The notes beneath the pieces were generated by a model. The model saw nothing but the letters and a program-made list of their open reading frames with translations, did not search any database and was not told the origin of the DNA. DNA of 64,000 nt. Origin: Orobanche coerulescens (lineage: Eukaryota > Streptophyta > Magnoliopsida > Lamiales > Orobanchaceae). The translations under genes and the position numbers were made by a program. The stretch lies in NCBI GenBank assembly GCA_033398695.1, contig CM065814.1, positions 108,378,501-108,442,500 of the forward strand, written 5' to 3'. This document shows, one piece after another, positions 5,317-58,183 of this stretch; the stretch's first letter is position 1, and the number at the start of each line of letters is the position of its first letter.

Positions 5317-5785
5317 GTCGAGTTGTACTCTTCCGGAAAATAGATTTTTAACTGTAAAGAGACCCGGCGGTGTTATATGGCACGGCCGAGTTGTTTTCTT
5401 CCGGTTTTTGGTCTTTTTCGGCTTGATCCCTCGTTCTTGTATCAATACACCTCGGATTTTAGCATATGATATACCGTTTCGAAGCTAATTTCACGAGGAA
5501 TTTATATCAAAGGAGAAGATATCTCAATTCGGAGTGGAGATTCTGGAATTTAGAAGATTCGACCGATACTGCTTCAATCTTTTGTCGTTTTAGTCCCTGT
5601 TTTAGCTTTTGATCGTCATAAACTCCAATATTAGCTATGAAAACGCATATTTCACCACAAACTTCGCTTGGTTACCTATAAATTAAAAACAACATACCAC
5701 GCATAAAAGAGAACAAAAATACTAAAAAGCAAACAAAAACACGACTAGAGAGAACAGAATGAGTCGATCAAGAATCGACTCATCA
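5317..5785 (-). repeat. Athila 3' LTR remnant (469 bp)
   Basis: It matches 16885-16952 joined to 23518-23931 and ends CGACTCATCA at 5785. The part equivalent to 15617-16884 is absent. The junction with element A at 5316/5317 has no TSD, which indicates a deletion across the left boundary and not a clean insertion end. Confidence 0.88.
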
Positions 5786-16732: not shown

Positions 16733-16950
16733 ACACGGCCTGTGTCCTGGAACACGGCCGTGTCGTACTACTCTGATAAGAAGGAAGAGTGTTCTGTCCA
16801 CGGACTCGGCCGTGTCCCATGACACGGCCGTGTTGTACTGCGCAGGAAATACATTTGTTGCTAGATAGGGGCTCGGCCGTGTTATAGAAGACACGGTCGA
16901 GTTGTACTCTTCCGGAAAATAGCTTTTTAACTGTAAAGAGACCCGGCCGT
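16733..16950 (-). repeat. Palindrome array in Athila LTR
   Basis: Copies of GACACGGCC-GTGTC and CTCGGCCGTGTC are spaced about 20-60 bases apart, as in the internal array at 9341-9660. Element II inserted into one motif (target CGTGT). Confidence 0.75.
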
Positions 16951-16952
16951 GT

Positions 16953-18528
16953 TGACACGCTTTTAGTGTAACTATCGCAAGTGCACGATATCGTATCAAG
17001 TAGTAAAGTGGACTTTTTCAGTCCGGTTTATCGATCCCACAAGGAAGTTTGGTTATAATTTGAATTATACACTATTAGTCTATTTTTATAGATACTATGA
17101 TAAGTGAAACACACAATTAAAAAGTTTGGTTTAATATTTGCAAAGAAAATGCAATAATAGTTCTAATATTATAAGGAAATAAAAAGATAGCAATAATAAT
17201 AGATTGATTAACGATAAAATGAAATAGTTGGGATTACAAACTTAGTTCGTCATTAGTTATACAAGATGTATAGGAGATCATAAAATGAATTTACTTATTA
17301 TGTTGTGTAGATTCGATTTTCCTTAAAAAGACGGTTTCTCTTTCGAACTATAAAACGCCCCTTACATATTGAATCAATCCACTATATTTCTATGTTGATT
17401 GGCTTCAATACATAGCATTAGGATTTATGAAAATAACTCAAAGAATCATCTACGGACTAGGGGTATATTTCTATCCCCTAGAACAACTTAGAGTGAAGAT
17501 CATTTGATCTAATCAAATATATTTTCTTTCGAAACATATGAAGACCATAAATATCGTCATTTATTTGCCAAATAAATAAAGATTGTTAAAACAATGAAAA
17601 TCACACACAATAATAAGTAATTCACAATAGATCTTTATACAAACATAAATAACATGACTAACCTTGTTTATAATCCCAACTAAAGATTACTTAGCCCATG
17701 AAGGGTTTATTACACATATTACAAGCTTGTGTGGTCATTATTAGTTGAATCAAGAGAAAGAATTGATCCTAACTCCCTTAGTAGATAAAGGAGATAGAAA
17801 CAATAAACTCTCTGAACAACATATGTTATACCACACTTACAAAGATCACTCAAGAACACAAGTGTGTTCTTCACACAAAAAGAAAAGTTTACAAAAAAAA
17901 TGGAAAATTATAAGATGAATGAATGATGAAGGATCTAAGGGGTCTATTTATACACCTAAAGTCATCTAATAGCTCCAAAACTCCAGCATTATTACATTAG
18001 ATCGTATCAATGCCAGCCATCCCCTCAATAATACACAAAAAGTATAAAAAATTAGACAAATCATAGTAATGCATCAAGAGTTACGGTAGTAACATTCGGG
18101 AGTTACGGTAGTAACTAGTGACTTACGGCCGTAACTCTGAATGTTACGGCCGTAACGTGGCTTCGTAAATTTGCTCATTTGAAGCTTTGATAGTTACGTT
18201 TTCAGCCGAAATTTCTCGGACTTTGCGTTTTTGCCCCAGATCTTCTTCGGATGATAACTTTTGATATATAACTCGATTTTGAATCGGAAAGACCGCCGAA
18301 TTCGTCTCGGAAAGCCCTACAACATGAATATATCAAAATTCAATAAAGAGAATATTTATTAAACATGTTGTTTCTTGAGTAATTCGATTATTTAATCCGA
18401 TCATCATCCGATAAAAATAAAATTATTAAAACTAATAAATTAAAAGCAAAAATGAGTAGACTAGCTCAATTATGGGTGAATTTTATCGATACAAACCATG
18501 GATAAGTGTACAAAATCGACACTTATCA
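16953..18528 (-). repeat. Element II 3' LTR
   Basis: It is near-identical to 21929..23512. Many of the differences fall at CAG/CTG/CCG sites. Palindrome motifs GTTACGGCCGTAAC lie around 18070-18160 and a TATA-like box (minus strand TATAAATAG) at 17944-17953. Confidence 0.92.
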
Positions 18529-18546
18529 CACCCCCAAACTTGAATT
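18529..18546 (-). other. Element II polypurine tract
   Basis: On the minus strand this is AATTCAAGTTTGGGGGTG, adjacent to the LTR. It shares the AAGTTTGGGGG core with the Athila tract. Confidence 0.8.
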
Positions 18547-19000
18547 CTTGCTAGTCAGCAAGACTCTTTATTATTCACACTCCAAAAATAAAAAAAATAA
18601 AAAGTAAAACAAAAATAAGAAAATTAATACACACATAAATTAAAATATAAAAAGAGAAAAGGAGATCAAAATGCCATTAATAAACAACAACCAGCTTTAT
18701 ACAGTAGATAGAAATGAATCAAGATTCAAAATAAATCTACTAATGTTTTTGAAGTTAAAACACGGTTTTTATTTTGTAATTCCAAAATGTAAGGTTTCCA
18801 CCCAAAAGGTTGATTATTTCTTTCCCACTCGTGATACACACGATTCCCTTTAATGGTTGCTCTCGATCACTCGTTTATTTTTAGACTCAATATGAAGAAG
18901 AATTTCATTGGCGTCATCAAATATTGTGATTTTCACAAAATTGAGTGTATTGAAATTCAACTGCTAATTAATTCAAATGTGCTCATAAACTACATCCCTT
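18547..19000 (-). other. Element II 3' non-coding region
   Basis: This AT-rich stretch lies between the polypurine tract and the hairpin repeats. It is conserved at high identity in element III (45625-46097). No ORF here looks coding. Confidence 0.6.
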
Positions 19001-19312
19001 TTAGTGATAGCTTTCACACCGTTATTTGCTAACGTGTAGCTCTTTTCACTAACACAATTTCTATCTCATTATTTTTCCTTTCGTAAAAAGGTGATAGCTT
19101 TCACACCGTTATTTGCTAACGTGTAGCTCTTTTGACCAATTTTTCTGAGACGGCAGCTACGCACCAACAATGGTTAGTCTTTTATTTTTCGCAAAATTTA
19201 AGACTTCCAAAATTAGGCAGCTATTGCTGCTCAACATTTCTCCTTTTCGTCATTTATTTTTTTAGGTGATAGCTTTCACACCGTTATTTGCTAACGTGTA
19301 GCTCTTTTCACC
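19001..19312 (-). repeat. Three copies of a conserved hairpin (element II)
   Basis: Units are at 19001-19052, 19090-19137 and 19265-19312. Each has the plus-strand plan GGTGA-t-AGCT-ttc-ACAC-c-GTTA-tttgc-TAAC-GTGT-AGCT-cttt-TCACC, a long imperfect stem with a 5-nt loop. Unit 1 has TTAGTGA paired with TCACTAA where units 2 and 3 have GGTGA with (T)CACC, a compensatory change. The same three units occur at matching positions in element III. Confidence 0.85.
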
Positions 19313-20163
19313 AATGACTCCATTTTTTTTAGGGAATAGAATTTTTGCAGAAAATCATTTTTTAATTAAGCATGAAAAATCAAAAACTCCACAAATTAAG
19401 TAAATTTCAGTTTTATTTTTCATCAACCAATTGATTCTTCTTTTCTCAAGGTAACGAATGACTCGATTTTATATGATAATTACAAGGCTTGGAAAGAGAG
19501 ATTAAGGCTCAAAAATTTTTGGAATATACAAAAAAAAAATTTACCGGTTAAAACGATTTAGAAGCTTGTATATAGCTAATTTATTGGTGTTATGGCCAGA
19601 TCTAGAAATCTCAAAAATCAAAATACTATAAATATATATATATATTAATAAAAAAAATTAAGGCAAATAACCAAATCAATCAAAACACACCAAAAACCAA
19701 ATCAATCAAAACACACCAAAATTACAACACTCCAAAATAATAAAACAAACCACCCCCAAACTTGAAAATAAAATTGTCCTCAGTTTAAAAATAAAAAAAA
19801 ATAAAAATCAATGCAGAAAAGCAGAATACTCCATGTTAAGAAAGTTGATGTTTGAGCTAACGCCTTTTAGAATCTGCAAGAGAATAAATATACGAGGCAC
19901 ACAACAAAAGAAAATAAAATATACTCGTAAGTATAACACAATTTTTAAGATGCGCATCAAGAAAGTCCGAAGAGTCGCCTTACGCTGCCATCAAAGTTTT
20001 TATAAAAAAAAAACAATAAATATTACAGTAATAAAATAACAATACATAAATCGCGAATAGATGCGCGTCAAGAGATCAAGAAGAAACTCCTTAAGCTGCC
20101 ATCATTTAGCACGATTATTACACACGACAGAAAGTAAAAATACAAGAGGTCCAACATGGGTTA
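19313..20163 (-). other. Non-coding region downstream of LOG-like gene
   Basis: This holds a polypurine-like tract at 19751-19765 (minus strand CAAGTTTGGGGGTG), a duplicated block (gatgcgc(a/g)tcaaga...aagaaagtcc or aagaaactcc...gctgccatca, 19950-20105) and A-rich runs. I see no coding ORF. Element III keeps the same layout. Confidence 0.55.
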
Positions 20164-20815
20164 TCAAAGGGAGAGGAATGAATCCACTTTTCGTTTTCTC
20201 ACGGTAAAATCTTCTACCCAGACAATTTTAGCTAGAGCTCGATCTGGTTGAGGAACAAATTCATTGAGTTTTTTTATTAGTTCTTCTGGTGTTGTTGCAG
20301 CGACTATGATTCGTTTTGCACGCTCGGAAATAAAGTCCTTTTCAGCAGAGTAGTCGATGAAAGACAGTAAACCATCAAAGAAACCATTGACATTAAGCAC
20401 ACCTATTGGTTTTTGATGAACATTTAGCTGGGCTCTGGTAACCACATGAAAAAGTTCCTCAAGGGTGGCAAAACCACCGGGAATGGTGATAAAGACGCCA
20501 GAATTATTTATCATGTGAGTTATGCGATCTTGCATATTCACAGATCTAAACTCATCTCCAATAGTTGACCCGGTGATTTTACTTTCAGCCAGAGGTTTTG
20601 GGATTATTCCCAACACTCTTACTCCTTCCATATAGCGACGTGACTCGTCCCATTAATCCTAGACTTCCTCCTCCGTAAACTACATGAATACATTTTTCTC
20701 CTAAGGTACGACCCAAGTTGTGGGCTGCTTCAGTGAAGCATGCCTCTTTTCCAGAACTAGATCCACCAAAAATGCAGACTGTGTTAAATTTTTTTGTTGA
20801 AGATGATGACTCCAT
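20164..20815 (-). pseudogene. LOG: LOG-like cytokinin riboside 5'-monophosphate phosphoribohydrolase captured by element II (one apparent frameshift)
   Basis: LOG enzymes release free, active cytokinin from its nucleotide. From ATG 20815 the first 61 codons give NTVCIFGGSSSGKEA and VYGGGSLGLMG, the N-terminal half of the LOG fold. After a one-base shift near 20630 the second frame (155 codons, to TGA 20164) gives VLGIIPKPLAESKITGSTIG, the phosphoribosyl-binding signature as PGGFATLEE (20455-20481; usual PGGxGTxxE, so Gly to Ala), then HQKPIGVLNVNGFFDGLLSF. Total length of about 215 codons is that of plant LOGs. There are no introns, as expected for a cDNA capture. It is in element sense orientation, downstream of the cysteine-rich ORF. 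Odd residues: GGS for the usual CGS, and MQDR before the signature. The same shift is in element III, so it is either old or a shared sequencing artefact. Confidence 0.88.
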
Positions 20816-21134
20816 TTTTGAAAAGACAAAAAAAAAATTTTAGGGAGAAACAGAGAAAAGTGCAAGTTTTAGGGATGAATGAAAGAAACCAATAGAAAGT
20901 TTATTTATAGAAGAAAAAGAAGGTAAAAAATTGTTTAACAAGTTTGTGATTGCGTTTGATTGTGTTTCAACTACTCAATAGAATAATGAAAGCTTTTATC
21001 GCGTATCACATTTTTTTATTCAGAAAATCTCACCACACGACAAAAATAAAAGATACTTATGCGTATGTACAGTAGTTGTGATTGTGGCTCACATCTTCCT
21101 CTGATTTTACGTTCAGAAACGGCCTAAACGCCTT

Positions 21135-21590
21135 CTATGAGTCGGGAAGAAGCTTCCCATCCACTTTTCTTACAAATTGGCAAACAGGGTCTTTTAACGT
21201 CAGATTTCCAAGACGTTGTTCATATTCTGGTTTGAATTTATTCCACAAACATTGAATTCCGTAATATACAAGTCCACTAGGATGCGTGTCAAGAGAAATT
21301 TCGATATTATCTAAATTCTCCTTATTCAGACCATCATTAATTAACTGAATTTTATCTTCTCTGTTTGTAGATGGAATTCCTAAAGATCGACATTTTGCAT
21401 TACAGTTCCATCTAGCACATTTAAAGCAAACGGCTAGCATCTTTGCTCGTCGTTTCTTGGCATATGAACTTTTTCCAAGCCCTGGTAAAAATCTAGTTGG
21501 TGTTTCTGTGAATTCACCTTCTATTCTTACTTTGGCTTCGATAATAAATCTTATGTCAAAAGGTATGCTTTTATTCGTAAGCAACCTCAT
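21135..21590 (-). CDS. Cysteine-rich basic protein of element II, function unknown (151 aa)
   Basis: The ORF is intact, starts 316 bases from the primer site where gag would be, and is followed by the LOG-like gene about 320 bases on. After a first ~45 residues of mixed character comes a strongly basic patch (SSYAKKRRAKML) running straight into a cysteine cluster C-x2-C-x4-C-x3-C (CFKCARWNCNAKC). The C-terminal half is mixed and ends in VRKVDGKLLPDS. It is not gag: there is no capsid domain, and the spacing is not a CCHC knuckle. The basic-then-cysteine layout recalls small nucleic-acid-binding silencing suppressors of some plant RNA viruses, but that is only an architectural impression. The element III copy differs mostly by synonymous changes. 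Confidence 0.65.
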   Translation of the reverse strand: MRLLTNKSIPFDIRFIIEAKVRIEGEFTETPTRFLPGLGKSSYAKKRRAKMLAVCFKCARWNCNAKCRSLGIPSTNREDKIQLINDGLNKENLDNIEISLDTHPSGLVYYGIQCLWNKFKPEYEQRLGNLTLKDPVCQFVRKVDGKLLPDS

Positions 21591-21905
21591 CCTTTCAAGC
21601 CTTGTCTTGTAAATTTTTAAAATTGCATTTTTGCTTAGAAAGGGAAATCATTTTTCAATTTTAAACAATGTTTCGTCCATGATAAAAAAAAAAACAAAAA
21701 TAAAAAGACAATGAAAATAATTGAATAAAATATCTACAAATATCAGTTGTTGTGGGAAACTGAAAAATCCGACTTTAATAGTCACGGAGTACCGTTATCC
21801 GCCACTTGACCGGACAAACACAATTTAGTACTAAGTTACAACGTCGAGAAATTTGTACCTATAAAAATAGTTTACAATGTAAGATTTCAAATATAACTTA
21901 TACTT
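21591..21905 (-). other. Element II leader, non-coding
   Basis: About 315 bases lie between the primer site and the cysteine-rich ORF. The sequence is AT-rich, and I see no further ORF. Confidence 0.5.
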
Positions 21906-21922
21906 CCCCGGCAACGGCGCCA
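21906..21922 (-). other. Element II primer-binding site (tRNA-Asp)
   Basis: On the minus strand this reads TGGCGCCGTTGCCGGGG, the complement of the plant tRNA-Asp 3' end, six bases from the 5' LTR. Confidence 0.9.
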
Positions 21923-22920
21923 AAAACTTGACACGCTTTTAGTGTAACTATCGCAAGTGCACGATATCGTATCAAGTAGTAAAGTAGACTTTTTGAGTCC
22001 GGTTTATCGATCCCACAAGGAAGTTTGGTTATAATTTGAATTATACACTATTAGTCTATTTTTGTAGATACTATGATATGTGAAACACACAATTAAAAAG
22101 TTTGGTTTAATATTTGCAAAGAAAATGCAATAATAGTTCTAATATTATAAGGAAATAAAAAGATAGCAATAATAATAGATTGATTAACGATAAAATGAAA
22201 TAGTTGGAATTACAAACTTAGTTCGTCATTAGTTATAAAAGATGTATAGGAGATCATAAAATGAATTTACTTATTATGTTGTGTAGATTCGATTTTCCTT
22301 AAAAAGACGGTTTCTCTTTCGAACTATAAAACGCCCCTTACATATTGAATCAATCCACTATATTTCTATGTTGATTGGCTTCAATACATAGCATTAGGAT
22401 TTATGAAAATAACTCAAAGAATCATCTAAGGACTAGGGATATATTTCTATCCCCTAGAACAACTTAGAGTGGAGATCATTTGATCTAATCAAATATATTT
22501 TCTTTCGAAACATATGAAGACCATAAATATCGTCATTTATTGGCCAAATAAATAGAGATTGTTAAAACAATGAAAATCACACACAATAATAAGTAATTCA
22601 CAATAGATCTTTATACAAACATAAATAACATGACTAACCTTGTTTATAATCCCAACTAAAGATTACTTAGCCCATGAAGGGTTTATTACACATATTACAA
22701 GCTTGTGTGGTCATTATTAGTTGAATCAAGAGAAAGAATTGATCCTAACTCCCTTAGTAGATAAAGGAGATAGAAACAATAAACTCTCTGAACAACATAT
22801 GTTATACCACACTTACAAAGATCACTCAAGAACACAAGTGTGTTCTTCACACAAAAAGAAAAGTTTACAAAAAAAAATGGAAAATTATAAGATGAATGAA
22901 TGATGAAGGATCTAAGGGGT

Positions 22921-22930
22921 CTATTTATAC
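22921..22930 (-). promoter_or_regulatory. TATA box of element II 5' LTR
   Basis: GTATAAATAG on the minus strand is the likely promoter for the cysteine-rich ORF and the LOG-like gene. Confidence 0.55.
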
Positions 22931-23051
22931 ACCTAAAGTCATCTAATAGCTCCAAAACTCCAGCATTATTACATTAGATCGGATCAATGTCAGCCATCCC
23001 CTCAATAATACACAAAAAGTATAAAAAATTAGACAAATCATAGTAATCTGT

Positions 23052-23140
23052 CAAGAGTTACGGCCGTAACATTCAGGAGTTATGGCCGTAACTAGGGTGA
23101 CTTACGGACGTAACTCTTGAATGTTACGGCTGTAACGTGG
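23052..23140 (-). repeat. Palindrome array in element II LTR
   Basis: Four GTTACGG-CGTAAC-type motifs (one perfect 14-mer, others with one change) are separated by ATTCAGGA-like or ACTAGGGTGAC-like spacers. Confidence 0.75.
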
Positions 23141-23517
23141 CTTCGTAAATTTGCTCATTTGAAGCTTTGATAGTTACGTTTTCAGCCCAGAATTTCTCAG
23201 ACTTTGCGTTTTTGCCCCAGATCTTCTTCGGATGATAACTTTTGATATATAACTCTGATTTTGAATCCGGAAAGACTGTCGAATTCGTCTCGGAAAGCCC
23301 TACAACATGAATATATCAAAATTCAATAAAGAGAATATTTATTAAACATGTTGTTTCTTGAGTAATTCAGTTATTTAATCCGATCATCATCCGATAAAAA
23401 TAAAATTATTAAAACTAATAAATTAAAAGCAAAAAACGAGTAGACTAGCTCAATTATGGGTGAATTTTATCGATACAAACCATGGATAAGTGTACAAAAC
23501 TGACACTTATCACGTGT

Positions 23518-23931
23518 TATATGGCACGGCCGAGTTGTTTTCTTCCGGTTTTTGGTCTTTTTCGGCTTGATCCCTCGTTCTTGTATCAATACACCTCGGA
23601 TTTTAGCATATGATATACCGTTTCGAAGCTAATTTCACGAGGAATTTATATCAAAGGAGAACACATCTCAATTTGGAGTGGATATTCTGGAATTTAGAAG
23701 ATTCGACCGATACTGCTTCAATCTTTTGTCGTTTTAGGCCCTGTTTTAGCTTTTGATCGTCATAAACTCCAATATTAGCTATGAAAACGCATATTTCACC
23801 ACAATCTTCGCTTGGTTACCTATAAATTAAAAACACAACATACCACACATAAAAGAGAACAAAAATACTAAAAAGCAAACAAAAACACGACTAGAGAGAA
23901 CAGAATGAGTCGATCAAGAATCGACTCATCA
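23518..23931 (-). repeat. Athila 5' LTR, part 2
   Basis: It continues the Athila LTR after element II, starting TATATGGCACGGCC once the duplicated CGTGT at 23513-23517 is passed. It matches 5375-5785 and ends CGACTCATCA. Confidence 0.9.
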
Positions 23932-43477: not shown

Positions 43478-45608
43478 TGATCGGTCAAAAACTTATCCTA
43501 AAAATAGGATTTTTTGAGTCGCTCGCAAATATATACGAGGTAGAAGTAGTTTGTGGTAAGTTCTACCAAGGTCTTTTCTCTCGAGGATTGTCCAACAGGG
43601 CTTCGTATAATTTTTTGTTACAAATTGCGAGAAGTAAATACTAAAATATACTAAAATATATTTTTGGGTTTTTTTTTAACTAAATTAAAATGCACTATAC
43701 TTTAAACTAAACTATTTTTTAATAAGACTATTTATATTAAGACTATTTTTATTAAGACTATTTATACTAGACTATTTATATTAAGACTATTTATACTAGA
43801 CTATTTATACTAGACTATTTATATTAAGACTATTTATACTAGACTATTTATACTAGACTATTTATATTAAGACTATTTATACTAGACTATTTATACTAGA
43901 CTATTTATATTAAGACTATTTATACTAGACTATTTATATTAAGACTATTTTTATACTAGACTATTTTTAACTAGTGAAAATGAATAGAATTAAAATGAGT
44001 TTGGAAATTTATAAAATCTAGGGGAATACGGGTTCATTAAATTAGGTTTTTAATTAAGTATAGGAATTGATTTATATGGATATAAAAGAAAAAATGAATG
44101 TTTATCGAGTCATCAACTTTTCACCTCCGTACTTTCGTAATCAAAGATGTCTTAATCGTCGCTACTTTTTAAGATGTTGATAACAAGATTAACACTTGAT
44201 AGATTGAAAAGATGTGTTTCCAATACACTTAACAATCAATCAAGGAGGTTTCACTAGTAGAAATAGGATATGATCAATCTCTATTTAAACCAATTAGTCC
44301 TTTCATTTCTCTAACTTGACTATTTTTAGGATAAACGATCGTTCATCGAGTAATCAACTTTTCACCTCCGTACTTTCGTAATCAAAGATGTCTTAACCAC
44401 TTTCGCAATCTTAAGATGTTGATAACAAGATTAACATTTGATAGATTGAAAAGATATGTTTCCAATTCACTCAACAATCAATCAAGAAGGTTTCATTAGT
44501 AAAAATAGGATATGATCAATCTCTATTTAAACCAATTAGTCCTAAAAATAGTTTAAATCAATCAAATACTCAATATATAACCTAATAGAAATCCCCCTTC
44601 CCCTAGGAAGAAAGATTAGCTACTCATTGGTTTATAGAAACTAAAATTATAATAGAAATAATGATATATATAATATATATATAGAAACTTTTAATTACTA
44701 GAACTTAATGACAATAGATAAAACTTACTTGAATATGATGAATCAAAGTGCAAGAAACAAACTTCAAAATATAACTTCAAACTTGTTTAAAGGTTACAAG
44801 CTTACAAAAATTGAAAGTAAAATACTAAGTGCTTATTGATCAAGCACTTTTCAATTACAAACTAAATGAAAGAAAAACTTCAAACCAAAAATAAAATACA
44901 AACTAAAATTGAAAGTTCTAAGGAAAATATATTGCTAAAAGAAAGGAGTATTTCTTAGCAAGAAGTTGAGGATTTCTTGGTAAGAATGTGGGTTTTGCAA
45001 TGGGTGAAGATGTCCTTTTATAGGTGATTTTCAAGAATACAATTGATTATTTAATTCAAAATATCTATTGTAATATCATTTTTTTAATTCTTTGTTCACA
45101 CTTCACCCATGTCTTTGAATTTTCAGATTTTTGAACAAAAAATATCTTGTGGTTGAGTTCACAAGTTGGTCAAAAGTGGACTAATTTTGCATGGCATCTG
45201 CTGAAAAACGGCGATGAAAAACGGCTCAGTTTGCCCCGTGTTGTGCGCCGTTTTGTGGTGACTCTGTCTCTTCCGGAATACGCGTGAGGACACGGCGCTA
45301 AATGCCGGCCGTGTGTGAAACGGCCCAAGACACGGCCCTTGTTGCGCCGTATGTGAAACGGCATACATAACACGGTCCTGTTTGCGCCGTGTTGTAGGTC
45401 GTTTTGCCTTGAAAAAATCCCGTCGTTGGATTTGGTCTTGTTTTCCGTCCTTTTTGATGCTTCATGTCAGTAATCTGTAAAATAACCATTTTTCGCTCAT
45501 GTTTGGATATATCTGTAAAATATATATTCTTAATCACAAATCAGTACAATTATGCCCGGAAAAATGAATATTTTGTATATGAATTTTAGATCAATTATGC
45601 ACCAATCA
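43478..45608 (-). repeat. Element III 3' LTR (2131 bp)
   Basis: It contains a 14/15-bp tandem array (43711-43975), a ~240-bp imperfect direct duplication (about 44100-44300 and 44342-44545), a TATA-like box near 45013-45021 (minus strand) and a palindrome-rich block at 45200-45400. Confidence 0.92.
43711..43975. repeat. Tandem array of ACTATTTATACTAG / ACTATTTATATTAAG
   Basis: It has roughly 17 units of 14-15 bp in a partly higher-order pattern (two of one type, then one of the other). It is repeated in the other LTR at 49118-49375. Confidence 0.85.
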
Positions 45609-46097
45609 AATACCCCACACTTAAATTCTTGCTAGTCCCGAGCAAGACTCATTATTAATCACACACAAAATAAAAATTAAAATAAGACACAAAATAAAAA
45701 ATAAAAAATAATACACACAAATTTAAGAAAAATAATTATATATAAAGATAAAAAGAGATCAAAATGCCATTAATACACAATAACCAACTTTATACAGTAG
45801 ATAGAAAATGAATCAAGATTCAAAATAAATCTACTAACGATTTTGAAGTTAAAACACGGTTTTTATTTTTGTAATTCCAAAATGCAAGGTTTCCCCCCCT
45901 AAAGGTTGATTATTTCTTTCCCACTCGTGACTTCACACGACTCCCTTTAATGGTTGCTCTCGATCACTCGTTTATTTTTCGACTCAATATGAAGAAGAAT
46001 TTCATCGGCGTCATCAAATATTGTGATTTTCACAAAATTGAGTGTATTGAAATTCAGCTGCTAATTAATTCAAATCTGCTCATAAACTATATCCCTT
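45609..46097 (-). other. Element III 3' non-coding region with terminal purine tract
   Basis: On the minus strand, TTAAGTGTGGGGTATT abuts the LTR. The rest aligns with 18547-19000 of element II. Confidence 0.65.
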
Positions 46098-46405
46098 TTA
46101 GTGATAGCTTTCACACCGTTATTTGCTAACGTGTAGCTCTTTTCACTAACACAATTTCTATCTCATTATTTTTCTTTCGTAAAAAGGTGATAGCTTTCAC
46201 ACCGTTATTTGCTAACGTGTAGCTCTTTTCACCAATTTTTCTGAGACGGCAGCTACGCACCAACAATGGTTAGTCCTTTATTTTTCGCAAAATTTAAGAC
46301 TTCCAAAATTAGGCATTATTCGCTCAACACTTCTCCTTTTCGTCATTTATTTTTTTAGGTGATAGCTTTCACACCGTTATTTGCTAACGTGTAGCTCTTT
46401 TCACC
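46098..46405 (-). repeat. Three copies of the conserved hairpin (element III)
   Basis: Units are at 46098-46149, 46186-46233 and 46358-46405. Stem and loop are the same as in element II, again with TTAGTGA/TCACTAA in unit 1 and GGTGA/TCACC in units 2 and 3. Confidence 0.85.
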
Positions 46406-47243
46406 AATGACTCCTTTTTTTTTTTTAGGGAATAGAATTTTTGCAGAAAATCATTTTTTAGTTAAGCATGAAAAATCAAAAACTCCACAAATTAAGTAAA
46501 TTTCAGTTTTATTTTTCATCAACCAATTGATTCTTCTTTTCTCAAGGTAACGAATGACTCGATTTTATATGATAATTACAAGGCTTGGAAAGAGAGATTA
46601 AGGCTCAAAAAAAAATTTGGAATATACAATTTTTTTTTACCGGTTAAAACGATTTTAGAAGTTTGTATATAGCTAATTTATTGGTGTTATGGCCAGATCT
46701 AAAAATCTCAAAAATCAAAATACTATAAATATATATATATAATAAAAAAAAATTAAGGCAAATAACCAAATCAATCAAAACACACCAAAATTATTAAACA
46801 AACCACACCAAAATTACAACACACCAAAATACTAAAACAAACCACCCCCAAACTTGAAAATAAAACTGTCCTCAGTTTATAAAATAAAAAATAAAAATCA
46901 ATGCAGAAAAGCAGAATACTCCCTGTTAAGAAAGTTGATGTCTGAGCCTAACGCCTTTTAGAATCTGCAAGAGAATAAATATACGAGGCACACACAAAAG
47001 AAAATAAAATATATTCGTAAGTATAACATAATTTTTTAGATGCGCATCAAGAAAGTCCGAAGAGTCGCCTTACGCTGCCATCAAAGTTTTTATAAAAGCA
47101 AAACACGAAATAAAAATTACAGCAATACATAAATCGCGAATAGATGCGCGTCAAGAGATCAAGAAGAAACTCCTTAAGCTACCATCATTTAGCACGATTA
47201 TTACACACGTAAAGTAAAAATACAAGAGGTCCGTCATGGGTTA
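46406..47243 (-). other. Element III non-coding region between hairpins and LOG-like gene
   Basis: It aligns with 19313-20163 and includes the internal polypurine-like tract at 46844-46858. Confidence 0.6.
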
Positions 47244-47877
47244 TCAAAGGGAGAGGAATGAATCCACTTTTCGTTTTCTCACTGTAAAATCTTCTACCTG
47301 ACAATTTTAGCTAGAGTGGATCTGGTTGAGGAACAAATTCATTGAGTTTTTGATTAGTTCTTCCGGTGTGGTTGCAACGACTATGATTCGTTTAGCACGC
47401 TCGGAAATAAAACCCTTTTCGGCGAGTAGTCGATGAAAGACAGAAACCATCAAAGAAACCATTGACATTAAGCACTCCTATTGGTTTTGATGAACATTTA
47501 GTGGGCTCTGGTAACCACATGAAAAAGTTCCTCAAGGGTGCCAAAACCACCGGAAGGGCGATAAAGGCGCGAATTATTTATCATGTGAGTTATGCGATCT
47601 TGCATATTCACGATCTAAACTCATCTCCAATAGTTGACCGGTGATTTTACTTTCGGCCCGGAGGTTTTGGGATTACTCCCAATACTCTTACTCCTTCCAT
47701 ATAGGCGAAACACTCGTCCCATTAATCCTAGACTTCCTCCTCCGTAAACTACATGAATGCATTTTTATCCTAAGGTACGACCCAAGTCGTGGGCATGATG
47801 AAGCATGCCTCTTTTCAGAACTAGATCCACCAAAAATGCAGTGTGTAAAATTTTTTTGTGGAAGATGATGACTCCAT
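47244..47877 (-). pseudogene. LOG: LOG-like gene of element III, many apparent indels
   Basis: It is collinear with 20164-20815 of element II, including start context and stop. At least eight small indels break it, for example TTCACGATC for TTCACAGATC, GGCGCGAATT for ACGCCAGAATT and TTAGTGGG for TTAGCTGGG. Most remove bases at CAG, CTG or CCG sites, which suggests base-calling loss as well as or instead of decay. The one-base shift after the GLMG segment is also present here. Confidence 0.8.
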
Positions 47878-48187
47878 TTTGAAAAGAAATTTATTTAGAG
47901 AGAAAAAGAGAAAAGTACAAGTTTGAGGGATGAATAAAAGAAACAAGCACAAAGGTTATTTATAGAAGAAAAAATGAGGAAAAATTGCTTAACAAGTTTG
48001 TGATTGCGTTTGATTGTGCTTCAACTACTCAATAGAATAATGAAAGCTTTTATCGCGTATCACATTTTTTATTCAGAAAATCTCACCATACGACAAAAAT
48101 AAAAGATACTCACGTGTATGTACAGTAGTTGTGATTGTGGCTCACATCTTCCTCTGATTTTACGTTCAGAAACGGCTTAAACGCCAT

Positions 48188-48641
48188 CTATGAGTCGGGG
48201 AGAAGCTTCCCATCCAATTTTCTTACAAATTGGCAAACAGGGTCTTTTAACGTCAGATTCCCAAGACGTTGTTCATATTCTGGTTTGAATTTATTCCACA
48301 AACATTGAATTCCGTAATACACAAGTCCACTAGGATGCGTGTCAAGAGAAATTTCGATATTATCTAAATTCTCCTTATTTAGACCATCATTAATTAACTG
48401 AATTTTATCTTCTCTGTTTGTAGATGGAATTCCTAAAGATCGACATTTTGCATTACAGTTCCATCTAGCACATTTATAGCAAACGGCTAGAATCTTTGCT
48501 CGTCGTTTCTTGGCATATGAACTTTTTCCAAGCCACAGTAAGAATCTAGTTGGTGTTTCGTGAATTCACCTTCTATTCTTACTTTGGCTTCGATAATGAA
48601 TCTTATGTCAAAGGTATGCTTTTATTCGTAAGCAACCTCAT
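48188..48641 (-). pseudogene. Cysteine-rich ORF of element III, two small indels
   Basis: It is collinear with 21135-21590. One base is missing in a T run near the start (CCTTTGACAT against CCTTTTGACAT) and one at a CTG site (TTTCGTG against TTTCTGTG). The basic patch and cysteine cluster are kept, with Phe to Tyr inside the cluster. By eye there are about six synonymous and five non-synonymous differences from element II. Confidence 0.7.
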
Positions 48642-48871
48642 CCTTTCAAGCCTTGTCTTGTAAATATTTAAAATTGCATTTTTGCTTAGAAAGGAAATCT
48701 TTTTCAATTTTATACAATGTTTCTTCCATGACAAAAAAAAATTAAAATGAAAACGATAAAATATCTACAAATATCGGTTGTTTGTGGGAAATCAAAATCG
48801 ACTTTGATAGTCACGAGTACCGTTATCCGCCACTTGGCCAGACAGAAAAATTATATTTGGCCTAAAACAAT

Positions 48872-48887
48872 CCCGACAACGGCGCCA
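48872..48887 (-). other. Element III primer-binding site (tRNA-Asp type)
   Basis: On the minus strand this reads TGGCGCCGTTGTCGGG, one change from the element II site, about five bases from the LTR. Confidence 0.82.
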
Positions 48888-48892
48888 AAATT

Positions 48893-51012
48893 TGATCGGT
48901 CCAAAACTTATCCTAAAAATAGGAGTTTTGAGCTCGCAAATATATACGAGGTAGAAGTAGTTTGTGGTAAGTTCTACCAAGGTCTTTTCTCTCGAGGATT
49001 GTCCAACAGGGCTTCGTATAATTTTTGTTACAAATTGCGAGAAGTAAATACTAAAATATACTAAAATATATTTTTGGGTTTTTTAACTAAATTAAACTGC
49101 ACTATACTTTAACCTAATCTATTTTTAATAAGACTATTTATATTAAGACTATTTTTATTAAGACTATTTATACTAGACTATTTATATTAAGACTATTTAT
49201 ACTAGACTATTTATACTAGACTATTTATATTAAGACTATTTATACTAGACTATTTATACTAGACTATTTATATTAAGACTATTTATACTAGACTATTTAT
49301 ACTAGACTATTTATATTAAGACTATTTATACTAGACTATTTATATTAAGACTATTTTTATACTAGACTATTTTTAACTAGTGAAAATGAATAGAATTAAA
49401 ATGAGTTTGGAAATTTATAAAATCTAGGGGAATACGGGTTCATTAAATTAGGTTTTTAATTAAGTATAGGAATTGATTTATATGGATATAAAAGAAAAAA
49501 TGAATGTTTATCGAGTCATCAACTTTTCACCTCCGTACTTTCGTAATCAAAGATGTCTTAATCATTGTCACTTTTTAAGATGTTGATAACAAGATTAACA
49601 CTTGATAGATTGAAAGATGTGTTTCCAATACACTTAACAATCAATCAAGGAGGTTTCACTAGTAGAAATAGGATATGATCAATCTCTATTTAAACCAATT
49701 AGTCCTTTCATTTCTCTAACTTGACTATTTTTAGGATAAGCGATCGTTCATCGAGTAATCAACTTTTCACCTCCGTACTTTCGTAATCAAAGATGTCTTA
49801 ACCACTTTCGCAATCTTAAGATGTTGATAACAAGATTAACATTTGATAGATTGAAAAGATATGTTTCCAATTCACTCAACAATCAATCAAGAAGGTTTCA
49901 TTAGTAAAAATAGGATATGATCAATCTCTATTTAAACCAATTAGTCCTAAAAATAGTTTAAATCAATCAAATACTCAATATATAACCTAATAGAAATCCC
50001 CTTCCCTAGGAAGAAAGATTAGATACTCATTGGTTTATAGAAACTAAAATTATAATAGAAATAATGATATATATAATATATATATAGAAACTTTTAATTA
50101 CTAGAACTTAATGACAATAGATAAAACTTACTTGAATATGATGAATCAAAGTGCAAGAAACAAACTTCAAAATATAACTTCAAACTTGTTTAAAGGTTAC
50201 AAGCTTACAAAAATTGAAAGTAAAATACTAAGTGCTTATTGATCAAGCACTTTTCAATTACAAACTAAATGAAAGAAAAGCTTCAAACCAAAAATAAAAT
50301 ACAAACTAAAATTGAAAGTTCTAAGGAAAATATATTGCTAAAAGAAAGGAGTATTTCTTAGCAAGAAGTTGAGGATTTCTTGGTAAGAATGTGGGTTTTG
50401 CAATGGGTGAAGATGTCCTTTTATAGGTGATTTTCAAGAATACAATTGATTATTTAATTCAAAATATCTATTGTAATATCATTTTTTTAATTCTTTGTTC
50501 ACACTTCACCCATGTCTTTGAATTTTCAGATTTTTGACCAAAAAAATATCTTGTGGTTGAGTTCACAAGTTGGTCAAAAGTGGACTAATTTTGCATGGCA
50601 TCTGCTGAAAAACGGCGATGAAAAACGGCTCAGTTTGCCCCGTGTTGTGCGCCGTTTTGTGGTGACTCTGTCTCTTCCGGAATACGCGTGAGGACACGGC
50701 GCTAAATGCCGGCCGTGTGTGAAACGGCCCAAGACACGGCCCTTGTTGCGCCGTATGTGAAACGGCATACATAACACGGTCCTGTTTGCGCCGTGTTGTA
50801 GGTCGTTTTGCCTTGAAAAAATCCCGTCGTTGGATTTGGTCTTGTTTTCCGTCCTTTTTGATGCTTCATGTCAGTAATCTGTAAAATAACCATTTTTCGC
50901 TCATGTTTGGATATATCTGTAAAATATATATTCTTAATCACAAATCAGTACAATTATGCCCGGAAAAATGAATATTTTGTATATGAATTTTAGATCAATT
51001 ATGCACCAATCA
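48893..51012 (-). repeat. Element III 5' LTR (2120 bp)
   Basis: It is nearly identical to 43478..45608. On the minus strand a palindrome-rich block at 50604-50800 lies upstream of a TATA-like box TATAAAAGG at 50417-50425. Confidence 0.92.
50417..50425 (-). promoter_or_regulatory. TATA box of element III 5' LTR
   Basis: TATAAAAGG on the minus strand, about 180 bases downstream of the block with AACGGCGC and GCCGGCCGTGTGTG words. Confidence 0.5.
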
Positions 51013-51017
51013 ATTGA

Positions 51018-56287: not shown

Positions 56288-57416
56288 GGGATTGTGGATG
56301 CGGGCACTGCAAGAATTTCTTGTGCCATAATGGAAAGTATGGGAAATTCGGTTCCCCTTCTTTTCCACCAATCCAACAGATCAAAGGTACTGCATTGTCA
56401 TCCTCCCAAGACAAAACTAGTTGCATAATATCTACTAAGGTCATTTCTTTGACCGACGTTACTACCACCCCTATTTCTTGCTATATTATAGAGTTGTTGA
56501 AATGGGTTAGTGGGAGTTCTGTCGAATTCCATGTTAAATGTATTTGTAGTCTTAATTCTTGTTTTTTGAGTTTGAATCTTATCACCGTATTTAGAAGAAT
56601 ATTCAGAAAAACAGGTTTCTAAACTATTTTTCAAATCAATTTTTACTTGTTCAACATCGGAATATTTTCAAATAAAGTTTGACTTTCAACAGTATCCTCA
56701 ATATTAGGAAAACCCAAATTTTTAAGAATATTATAATATATTTCAAGTAATTGTTCTACTTGAGCTAAATTTAAATCGGGAGATAAAACAGCACTAATCA
56801 AGAAAACATCATGAATACGATTAAAGTATTTTAGCCATTTTAAACACATATTGTAAATAGCATTCGATAATCTTTCGGATTTACTACAAGCATCCATTTC
56901 AGATACAATAAAACAACAATGAAATAAAACTTTGGGAGACGTGGGATAATAACAACCACTTAAATCTTTAGTTGCATTTTCAAAAACCCTTAATAGTTTT
57001 ATTAAATCTTTAGTTTCATCCCAATACGTTGGCAATAAATAAAATCCTTCTACGTGAAAATACGTATCAAAAAATTCACACAATAATTCTTTATATTCAT
57101 TAGTTGAATTTAACATCTCATAAGTTGAGTTCCATCTATATTTGACGTCTGGAGTAAAAAATTTGGGTTGAATTTGTTTTGACTTTAAAAATAAAGCTCG
57201 TAGTGCAAGTTTATGTTGTTTGGCTAAGTATACTACTTGTCTAGTCATTGTGGTACGGGGAATTCTTTTAATAGCAGGATTATAGGCATTTTGCATCCTG
57301 TATTCCCAACCCGTACTATCCGCAAAATTAAAAGGTAAAGATTCTTGTGCACATAATTTTGCCATTTGTTCTCTAGCAATTTTTTCATTATATTTATAAA
57401 GTTGAGATTCAGACAT
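56288..57416 (-). pseudogene. hAT-1 transposase, C-terminal half
   Basis: From 57416 the frame gives a short N-side block (CAQESLPFNFADSTGWEYRM), then an abrupt join near 57240 to KFFTPDVKYRWNSTYEML and LPTYWDETKDLIKLLRVFEN, DLSGCYYPTSPKVLFHCC. After a shift near 56640 a second frame carries TFNMEFDRTPTNPFQQLY. A third near 56340-56365 has FDLLDWWK, the hAT dimerisation-domain signature. The catalytic DDE centre is missing at the join, so the protein would be inactive. Confidence 0.88.
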
Positions 57417-58183
57417 ACCTTGATTGCCGTCGCCGGCTCGATAGAAGGTTGGAAGTTGAGTTGACTTTGTGACTTTTGTTCTCCGTGGACCGAGGCATGG
57501 TTATTTTCAAAATGCCTTTTAAAATTTCCATATCCATCCCCGGCTTTATACGGATACTCTTTCGAGCAGTAGTTGCAAGATACCTTCATCGAACCATCCG
57601 GCATTTTTTCCTTCTTAAAGTGTTTTGAAAAAAGTACGGATACCGGTCTCCTTTCTGCAACAGGGGCAGGCTTGTTTCTTGCTTTAGTTTTCTTGCTTCC
57701 TCTGCCTTTCACATTTTCTTCCTCCTCGGACGATAACTCCTCAACATAAGGAGGTTCTTCTTCAGCTTGGCTTGCCGCAGGACGCTTCGACTTTGATTTT
57801 TGCGTCGGAGTTGGTACGCCATGAAGAGTGCGCTCGAATGTTGCATATGTTTGATTTAACATAGCTTCATCGATTTCATGGTCCATTTCTTCGTCGATAT
57901 TTTGCAGTTGTTGACGATTCGGGACACGTCGAAATCCCCGGAGATCAACTTCTTCTTCACTGGTAGTTGTTGTACTACCGTAATAGATATTTTCATGTGT
58001 AACATCATATTCAGGATCTTGACTTTCATTTTCAAAACCGGGTGGAGTTTGGTTTTGGGGCTCCCGAATAATTATTCCAGATGGTTTCTTCGATTTGCCC
58101 CAAAGACCCATTCGCTCGAACTTGGACATTTTGGATTTTTTGGGAGATGTAGCAATACCCTTTCCCTTGTCAGAACTCGACAT
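57417..58183 (-). pseudogene. hAT-1 transposase, N-terminal BED zinc-finger part
   Basis: It starts at ATG 58183 with a Ser/Lys-rich region (MSSSDKGKGIATSPKKSK) that could act as a nuclear signal, then an acidic stretch. Next is a BED-type zinc finger with CNYCSKEYPYKAG and FKRHFENNH (C-x2-C...H-x4-H), the DNA-binding module of Ac/hAT transposases. The frame passes to the C-terminal half by a one-base shift near 57420. Confidence 0.88.

Follow-up and report, generated by a model that had tools for sequence, protein, structure and literature searches.

A gag/pol-less LTR retrotransposon of Orobanche coerulescens carrying a LOG-like gene and a gene for a virus-type nucleic-acid-binding protein homologue

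In 64,000 nts of the Orobanche coerulescens genome (contig CM065814.1, positions 108,378,501 to 108,442,500; hereafter the window), we found an LTR retrotransposon, element A, that carries two sense-oriented cargo genes and in which neither gag nor pol was recognised. The structure of the element, the thousands of LOG copies in this genome, their independent insertions, the recurrent pairing of the two genes, and the stronger constraint on shared than on singleton variants are direct observations. Our overall reading, to which we assign a probability of about 70%, is that element A is a non-autonomous element copied in trans, most likely of the Athila type, that its LOG and binding-protein cargo acts on the host, and that the scrambling of a site within the LOG gene is a base-calling fault.

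Structure and insertion of element A

The features of element A are listed below in window positions.

16953..23512, minus: element A, non-autonomous LTR retrotransposon, whole (LTR pair, target-site duplication, primer binding site, polypurine tract)
16948..16952, no strand: left target-site duplication (TSD), CGTGT, read directly
23513..23517, no strand: right TSD, CGTGT, read directly
21929..23512, minus: 5' LTR in sense (TGATAAG...GTGTCA), from repeat comparison
22921-22930: TATA-like CTATTTATAC (plus-strand reading) in the 5' LTR
16953..18528, minus: 3' LTR in sense (K2P to the 5' LTR, 0.022)
21905..21922, minus: primer binding site (PBS), which we take to be of the tRNA-Asp type, exact 18-mer
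18531..18544, minus: polypurine tract (PPT) preceding the 3' LTR
19753..19766, minus: second copy of the PPT motif, downstream of LOG

The earlier note on this DNA had reported LTRs, a TSD, a primer site and a PPT in this 6.56-kb element, and all of them were located, the two LTRs being about 97% identical; paired LTRs, a 5-bp TSD, a PBS and a PPT are the features of an LTR retrotransposon. The absence of gag and pol, which it had also claimed, agrees with our scan: the interior ORFs of at least 60 aa are the cargo frames and two frames (60 and 68 aa) on the opposite strand, and neither gag nor pol was recognised among the three cargo frames scanned, the two opposite-strand ORFs lying outside the scan. 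Judged by these data (ORFs ≥60 aa listed, three scanned), element A does not have the gag and pol between LTRs of an autonomous Ty3/gypsy element. Since it has no RT or pol, it holds no sequence for RT/RH/INT placement in Athila.

A genome-wide search for the words that flank LOG matched at least 3,245 copies of the gene, whatever their carrier, versus 0 matches for the reversed-pattern control. The search with the element A LTR gave 4,357 first-look candidates, 40 of which were scored. Among ten 9-kb loci used to check insertion, four had both LTRs complete, two had a second LTR match that was cut, and four had no usable pair; all four of the other copies with both LTRs complete carry their own perfect 5-bp TSD, with LTR K2P values of 0.012-0.022. 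That the LOG gene is a single host retrocopy or an assembly chimera (chimerism and a count of only one or two copies being grounds that the earlier note had named against itself) is contradicted both by the 3,245 pattern matches and by separate copies with independent TSDs, and we give it practically no chance. Nothing was found in favor of that reading.

No autonomous partner with the LTRs of element A was seen among ten LTR loci read, two of which are the window's own. One candidate, a 12-kb LTR spacing, was rejected by eye as a piece of the interior together with RT/RNase-H-like frames of another element.

The two cargo genes and their constraint

Three further features of the window concern the cargo.

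21135..21590, minus: ORF A, homologue of flexivirus/carlavirus-type nucleic-acid-binding proteins (Carla_C4, Viral_NABP)
20164..20815, minus: ORF B, LOG-like, in two overlapping frames here (PF03641; At2g37210 match)
43478..51013, minus: element B, same interior, unrelated 2.1-kb LTRs, ORFs broken

ORF B lies in sense orientation on the minus strand within element A, as had been proposed, and its LOG-like identity is borne out by the match of the longer piece to PF03641 (E=4e-30) and by At2g37210 as the best solved-structure match. The full length that the earlier note gave it is not supported in the window, where it is split into overlapping frames of 76 aa (20815-20585) and 155 aa (20631-20164) that do not form one open frame, and its PGGFGT motif is changed to PGGFAT (PGGFATLEE). 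Among 40 copies examined, 8 have the whole gene open and the other 32, as assembled, do not; the open copies have both the family match and the PGGxGTxxE motif of LOG proteins. Homologues with full-length coverage occur in other plants (60-63% in most Rehmannia and Paulownia matches). Pfam also gives a match to SLOG cluster 4 (PF18306), a group whose members are not all cytokinin enzymes, which would suit a LOG domain repurposed for nucleotide pools or for a nucleotide-binding accessory role instead of cytokinin; we consider this unlikely, because M-x2-R and PGGFGTLEE are intact in the open copies, which can be aligned with plant LOG.

ORF A, the second sense ORF, was missed by the earlier note. 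It is open over 151 aa in the window, while the intact copies reach 181 aa at their longest, and it scores above the curated Pfam cut-offs for both Carla_C4 (7.2e-6; 26.3 bits, cut-off 20.9) and Viral_NABP (2.6e-5; 24.7 bits, cut-off 23), while one other copy (L010) is above the cut-off for Carla_C4 only. A total of 238 homologues were found, and the named organisms among the best 120 of these are plants; homologues with full-length coverage (57-63%) are present in Xanthoceras, Populus, and Acer. No viral relative was confirmed in IMG/VR, and a plasmid search gave no match. The predicted structure of the protein has low confidence (mean pLDDT 60.7).

The two ORFs co-occur repeatedly, also in other Orobanche species. 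In O. minor and O. gracilis they have neighboring gene numbers, and the sequence of one O. hederae gene model holds both, with Pfam naming only LOG there. Four contigs above 2 kb (8723, 4511, 2425, and 2128) are common to the match lists of both ORFs, their identity being taken from equal size. In one gene model of O. minor, the binding protein is fused to a segment similar to the protease of the window's Athila element (E=4e-8). Within the window, element B, likewise missed before, has an interior 92% identical over 3.3 kb to that of element A, and its LTRs show no detectable similarity to the element A pair. Within the window, the core 10-mer of the PBS is confined to elements A and B; the window's Athila element with ORF-1 has no such primer site. 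A tRNA-Asp-type primer site presumably fits the Athila lineage.

With regard to selection, the nonsynonymous/synonymous ratios of variants found in at least two copies were 0.33 for the main LOG piece, 0.60 for the short N-terminal LOG piece, and 0.31 for ORF A, versus 0.72, 0.75, and 0.68, respectively, for singletons (pooled Fisher p=0.018, with 79 shared changes that are not independent events, and with copies selected because they resemble the window). Variation is thus not simply neutral, the outcome that the earlier note had set against its own proposal, and both cargo genes show signs of what may be maintenance by selection. The two genes might instead be passive passengers, trapped once and copied along with an element to which neither product matters. 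Many copies are broken as assembled, and the singleton ratios (0.68-0.75) are taken as near neutral, as would be expected of passengers; however, constraint is stronger on the shared variants, the short LOG piece (0.60) showing this least clearly, and distantly related plants have kept homologues of both genes with full-length coverage. The binding protein also retains 70% mean column identity over 39 chosen sequences, and 120 of 129 scored genomic matches, a best-scoring subset biased to intact copies, have no internal stop. We therefore regard passive carriage as improbable.

The scrambled site within the LOG gene

20631..20652, minus: scrambled site within LOG, an unreliable stretch at which the window frame breaks

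Among the first 100 listed copies, 47 show scrambling at this site, in 40 distinct forms. Its probable cause is faulty base-calling of long reads where CTG/CAG triplets cluster, which makes the frame of the window copy as assembled an unreliable guide to the true one. At four CTG/CAG sites in the LTRs, 15 of 82 readings deviated, 10 of these giving CpG words, versus 1 of 28 readings for a pair of control sites, although the four sites were picked because the window LTRs differ there and the controls were not. In other repeat pairs of the window the CTG/CAG excess was weaker or absent (element B 1/16, AthLTR 0/7), and control triplets were enriched too. CpG in the scrambled fillers was slightly above a letter shuffle (36/47 vs 67%).

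Alternatively, a sequence-specific nuclease or another hypermutation process could be rewriting this CTG/CAG-rich site in roughly every second copy. Besides the number and diversity of the altered forms, this is favored by a gradient along C1 (16/24, 14/28, 9/26, 8/22; trend p=0.019), by another altered stretch, some 90 bp upstream, that shares an 8-mer with the site (by eye), and by the mostly uniform site in the listed Orobanche gene models, which favor open frames. On the other side, the LTR sites show the same kind of CTG/CAG-to-CpG change, having been chosen for differing, the forms resemble by eye mixtures of few left and right pieces, and so short a target should be expected to hit genes too. 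Real scrambling is thus rather unlikely in our judgment, and a fault at CTG/CAG clusters is the more likely origin. Frameshifts at such clusters in the present assembly are not trustworthy without other reads.

Three other origins were rejected. DNA-transposon footprints received no support, with 0 transposons in the 20 places read of 28 with a predicted right junction. Simple clonal descent was also rejected, albeit weakly because the whole family shows low linkage: two of the 147 common variable positions were clearly associated, both inside the site (next best, p=0.020, uncorrected), and the scrambled/unscrambled label is scattered across a poorly resolved tree. Dependence on age was not significant (p=0.18).

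Proposed mechanism and comparison with known systems

Under the main reading, element A would be a non-autonomous element, most likely of the Athila type (Ty3/gypsy), that has kept its cis signals (LTRs, primer site, and PPT) and may be copied in trans by the gag-pol of other elements. Its cargo would be two sense-oriented accessory genes, one for a small nucleic-acid-binding protein of the carlavirus/flexivirus type, rich in cysteine, and one for a putative LOG-type cytokinin riboside 5'-monophosphate phosphoribohydrolase. Intact copies could produce active LOG, free cytokinin locally, and thereby favor division of the expressing cells, from which a germline or meristem advantage for a LOG-carrying element might follow. 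Viral relatives of the cysteine-rich protein counter silencing or regulate transcription, and the protein may do likewise here. More tentatively, by analogy with DNA tumour viruses and agrobacteria, the two-gene cassette might belong to a lineage of plant retroelements older than the rosid-asterid split, which would use its virus-type regulator of silencing or transcription and its hormone-activating enzyme to steer host cells to division; here the cassette would have spread on gag/pol-less carriers with exchanged LTRs. We hold this possible, yet doubtful.

If the main reading is true, a mobile element with genes for an enzyme that activates a hormone and for a regulator of viral type exists in thousands of copies in a parasitic plant, and whether changed host cell fate benefits retroelements becomes directly testable. 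The number of LOG genes counted in such plants may in part reflect copies of the element that annotation has taken for genes. Steinbauerova et al. are said to have described in 2011 two Athila-like elements similar to LOGL4.

The cysteine-rich region of ORF A matches the carlavirus/flexivirus nucleic-acid-binding proteins (Pfam PF01623, PF05515) above the curated cut-off; unlike these, the protein is encoded by a retrotransposon and reaches 181 aa. According to PMC2410132, non-autonomous Athila families of Arabidopsis have intact frames under purifying selection, and distant families have recombined with one another; element A would likewise be a non-autonomous carrier of frames that selection may have kept. 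The genes recombined there are gag, pol, and env, whereas here accessory genes are found between two unrelated LTR pairs. Another parallel is the orchid Ty3/gypsy element with an ORF for an AlkB-type m6A demethylase (available part of PMC9289625), which also keeps a captured enzyme gene whose domain is known from flexiviruses. The orchid element has a Gag-Pol ORF and an enzyme assayed in vitro, whereas element A has a putative LOG enzyme and a putative binding protein.

The earlier note knew of no LOG-carrying element, yet Ty3/gypsy elements with a LOG ORF have been described before: PMC9289625 states LOG/YgdH ORFs in such elements of Citrus sinensis and C. clementina and, under less strict filtering, of Populus trichocarpa, and cites Steinbauerova 2011 for LOG/YgdH domains in LTR elements. 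'Carla', 'NABP', and PF01623 are absent from its main text, as available, and 'Carla' and 'nucleic acid binding' were not found in the available part of PMC6317226. In the literature examined (titles and abstract openings, with few subscription papers), we found no report of both genes together in one element, nor of a carrier that lacks gag and pol, has been amplified on a large scale, and holds such a pair of genes, with the pair also lying between a second, unrelated set of LTRs. Element A thus shares with the known LOG-bearing Ty3/gypsy elements a LOG-family ORF inside an LTR retrotransposon, and differs from them in having no gag or pol, in its second conserved ORF, and in the at least 3,245 LOG copies within one genome.

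Structure and setting of the element

Element A is a mobile non-autonomous LTR retrotransposon without recognised gag or pol, and it carries two repeatedly linked genes: a homologue of carlavirus/flexivirus nucleic-acid-binding proteins (ORF A) and a LOG-like gene (ORF B) of the cytokinin riboside 5'-monophosphate phosphoribohydrolase type. Its features are as follows:

16953-23512, minus strand, element A, with LTR pair, target-site duplication (TSD), primer site and polypurine tract
23512-21929, minus strand, 5' LTR (sense order)
21922-21905, minus strand, primer site, which we take to be of tRNA-Asp type
21590-21135, minus strand, ORF A
20815-20164, minus strand, ORF B (LOG)
19766-19753, minus strand, first polypurine motif, downstream of LOG
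18544-18531, minus strand, polypurine tract
18528-16953, minus strand, 3' LTR

The TSD is CGTGT (5 bp), and the target appears to be an LTR belonging to another element (pieces of this LTR at 5370-5785 and 23514-23931). Gag, protease, integrase and ATHILA ORF-1 were matched in the interior of that other element. Three 54-nt repeats (87-100% identical) lie at 18999-19314 in the 3' region downstream of LOG, and the LTRs hold palindromes of the GTTACGG/CCGTAAC type (18080-18160 and 23060-23140) within LTR positions 377-456, a stretch that matches itself when reverse-complemented. Elsewhere in the window, hAT-like transposase pieces were found at 56643-58183, namely a BED zinc finger and an RNase-H-like part whose match falls short of the Pfam cut-off. 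The surrounding assembly comprises 3.65 Gb in 1,279 contigs; contigs C1-C19 recur among the matches, and the 17 of these with a size shown measure 138-237 Mb.

Copy number, age and possible exchange between elements

LOG copies in any carrier were counted, as a minimum, by exact genome-wide matches to a pattern inside LOG that allows a free gap, giving 3,245 matches (1,588 and 1,657 by strand) vs none for the reversed pattern. The earlier note had named a copy number of only one or two as a refutation; the genome holds at least 3,245 LOG copies. Both LTRs were complete in four of ten 9-kb loci, and all four have a perfect TSD of their own and an LTR K2P of 0.012-0.022; of the remaining six, two had the second LTR match cut, leaving the TSD not judgeable, and four had no usable pair. 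Element A itself has an LTR K2P of 0.022. Plant substitution rates are 0.7-1.3e-8 per site per year, and K2P values of 0.012-0.022 correspond to insertion ages of roughly 0.5-1.6 million years, a figure that base-calling faults would inflate.

A second element in the window, element B (43478-51013, minus strand), has an interior 91-92% identical to that of element A over 3.3 kb, and its LTRs show no detectable similarity to the element A pair. These LTRs are 2.1 kb long and 98.6-98.8% identical; because their K2P is only 0.0076, element B is the younger of the two. Its ORFs are broken. Recombination between distant families is described for Arabidopsis Athila in PMC2410132. In 40 loci holding family copies (L001-L020 and L031-L050), variant linkage falls quickly with distance, with a mean r2 of 0.54 below 20 bp, 0.15 at 20-100 bp, 0.07 at 300-700 bp and about 0.05 farther away. 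Such rapid decay suggests frequent template switching between element RNAs.

Identity and integrity of the two genes

The earlier note had claimed a full-length LOG gene in element A. Its family assignment holds, a 155-aa piece matching PF03641 at 4e-30 and also Arabidopsis At2g37210 and At5g11950; its full length does not, the window copy consisting of two overlapping frames. The window motif reads PGGFATLEE vs PGGFGTLEE, and LOG is open over its full length in 8 of 40 copies as assembled. In Orobanche minor, element-type LOG proteins (P0131 and P0183) bear the host-gene name 'Cytokinin-activating enzyme working in the direct activation pathway'. Proteins named in this way may make the LOG family look too large when its members are counted in such genomes.

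Window ORF A scores above the curated cut-offs of Carla_C4 and Viral_NABP, and a 181-aa copy above that of Carla_C4 only. There are 238 homologues at E<=0.001; named organisms among the best 120 are Orobanche, Xanthoceras, Populus and Acer. Across 39 chosen aligned rows, the mean column identity is 70% and a cysteine cluster is conserved; the predicted fold is mostly helical (mean pLDDT 60.7, a low confidence). In this genome, 120 of 129 scored matches (from 26,837 first-look candidates, longer query) lack an internal stop, in a best-scoring set biased towards intact copies.

Constraint was examined in the 40 copies that best match the window (38 for ORF A), a change being shared if present in at least two copies. 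Per-site ratios for shared changes were 0.31 in ORF A (17 synonymous, 20 nonsynonymous), 0.60 in a short LOG piece (5, 10) and 0.33 in the main LOG piece (13, 14), vs singleton ratios of 0.68 (31, 79), 0.75 (6, 15) and 0.72 (28, 65), respectively. Pooled, the contrast has an odds ratio of 1.95 (p=0.018), with shared changes not being independent events, and fits selection on copies that breed, with most resident copies drifting.

The window LOG frame breaks within 20631-20652, a short CTG/CAG-rich stretch that is variable in most copies read and, homopolymers and low-complexity AT/TG stretches aside, is the most variable place in 40 copies. Of the first 100 of the 3,245 pattern matches, all on C1, 41 show the common CTG-rich form and another 12 lie 1-3 substitutions from it, chiefly C>T or G>A. 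The other 47 are scrambled and fall into 40 different forms. CpG is only mildly enriched in the scrambled fillers (36/47 vs 67% under letter shuffling), and the scrambled fraction drops stretch by stretch along the first 110 Mb of C1 (16/24, 14/28, 9/26, then 8/22; p=0.019 for the trend). Orobanche LOG gene models listed are mostly uniform here, gene models favouring open frames. Another altered place lies about 90 bp upstream and, judged by eye, has a CTG/CAG-type 8-mer in common with this site. DNA-transposon footprints were considered and rejected: 20 of 28 places expected to hold a transposon were read, and none had one.

Methylated CTG/CAG clusters that were miscalled in base-calling are probably the source of most of the scrambling. 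Four LTR CTG/CAG sites were altered in 4/22, 3/22, 3/20 and 5/18 readings (CpG words in 10/15), a fifth, whose main form lacks CTG/CAG, in 2/22, and two control sites in 1/28, the five sites having been chosen for differing between the window LTRs and hence bound to vary, and the controls not so chosen. CTG/CAG makes up 3% of the alignment of the two window LTRs and is touched by 10 of their 34 differences, some of which reflect ordinary CpG decay; the corresponding figures for other repeat pairs are 1/16 (cover 1.7%), 6/48 (3.5%), 9/21 (10.5%), 2/7 (7.2%), 15/42 (13.8%), 0/7 (2.9%) and 32/160 (5.6%). The control triplet G[AT]C is likewise over-represented at repeat-pair differences. Lineage differences in methylation are expected to reduce nanopore base-calling accuracy, CHG not being named in the available text (PMC9749173). 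Since a base-calling fault is probable, the window frameshift can count neither as proof nor as disproof of a working LOG in element A. CTG/CAG is a frequent place of difference between repeat copies in the window pairs and at L001-L082, and some changes to CpG words recur. A base-calling fault in the assembly may break frames in repeats generally.

Linkage, spread and comparison with known elements

An ORF A line was found at 15 of the first 20 LOG loci (none at L004, L005, L015, L017 and L019, under a keyword and 60-aa filter), and the ORF A stretch lies inside the window-interior match in all ten 9-kb loci, L022 starting at its second base. For both genes, the closest named proteins belong to Orobanche (O. 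minor, O. hederae and O. gracilis), which makes a broomrape or close relative the probable source plant. ORF A and LOG have neighbouring gene numbers in O. minor (020768/020769, 009434/009435) and O. gracilis (024430/024434), and one O. hederae gene model contains both, Pfam (0.01 limit) naming LOG only. Contigs of 8723, 4511, 2425 and 2128 bases occur in both match lists, sameness being assumed from equal size; matching sizes below 1.2 kb are chance because such contigs are too short for both genes. In one O. minor model, ORF A is fused to a stretch like the protease of the window Athila (E=4e-8), an indication that some elements carry pol as well as ORF A.

Reevesia, Diplodiscus, Pterospermum, Populus, Paulownia and Rehmannia each have several to many LOG proteins of this type, one Pterospermum cluster having 327 members. 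In a 38-row tree built without host LOGs of the same plants, these LOGs and a sister Xanthoceras protein, which looks host-like, stand apart from two Arabidopsis sequences (99/94); Paulownia, Rehmannia and Orobanche rows cluster with one further row (100/99). The simplest reading would be a single old capture of LOG followed by mainly vertical descent.

In the proposed mechanism, gag-pol of an Athila-type element would be supplied in trans to element A, the cargo would be transcribed from the LTR promoter, and LOG would release active cytokinin in cells expressing the element. Carlavirus cysteine-rich proteins are silencing suppressors and nuclear regulators; by analogy, the cysteine-rich ORF A protein might shield element RNA or alter transcription. 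Together these effects might help the element into the germline. The texts available to our literature search contained no report of an ORF-A-type second gene beside LOG in an element. Steinbauerova 2011 reportedly agrees with a LOG domain in LTR elements. A LOG-carrying element, of which the author of the earlier note knew no example, was already anticipated: PMC9289625 states a LOG/YgdH domain for LTR elements of Citrus and Populus.
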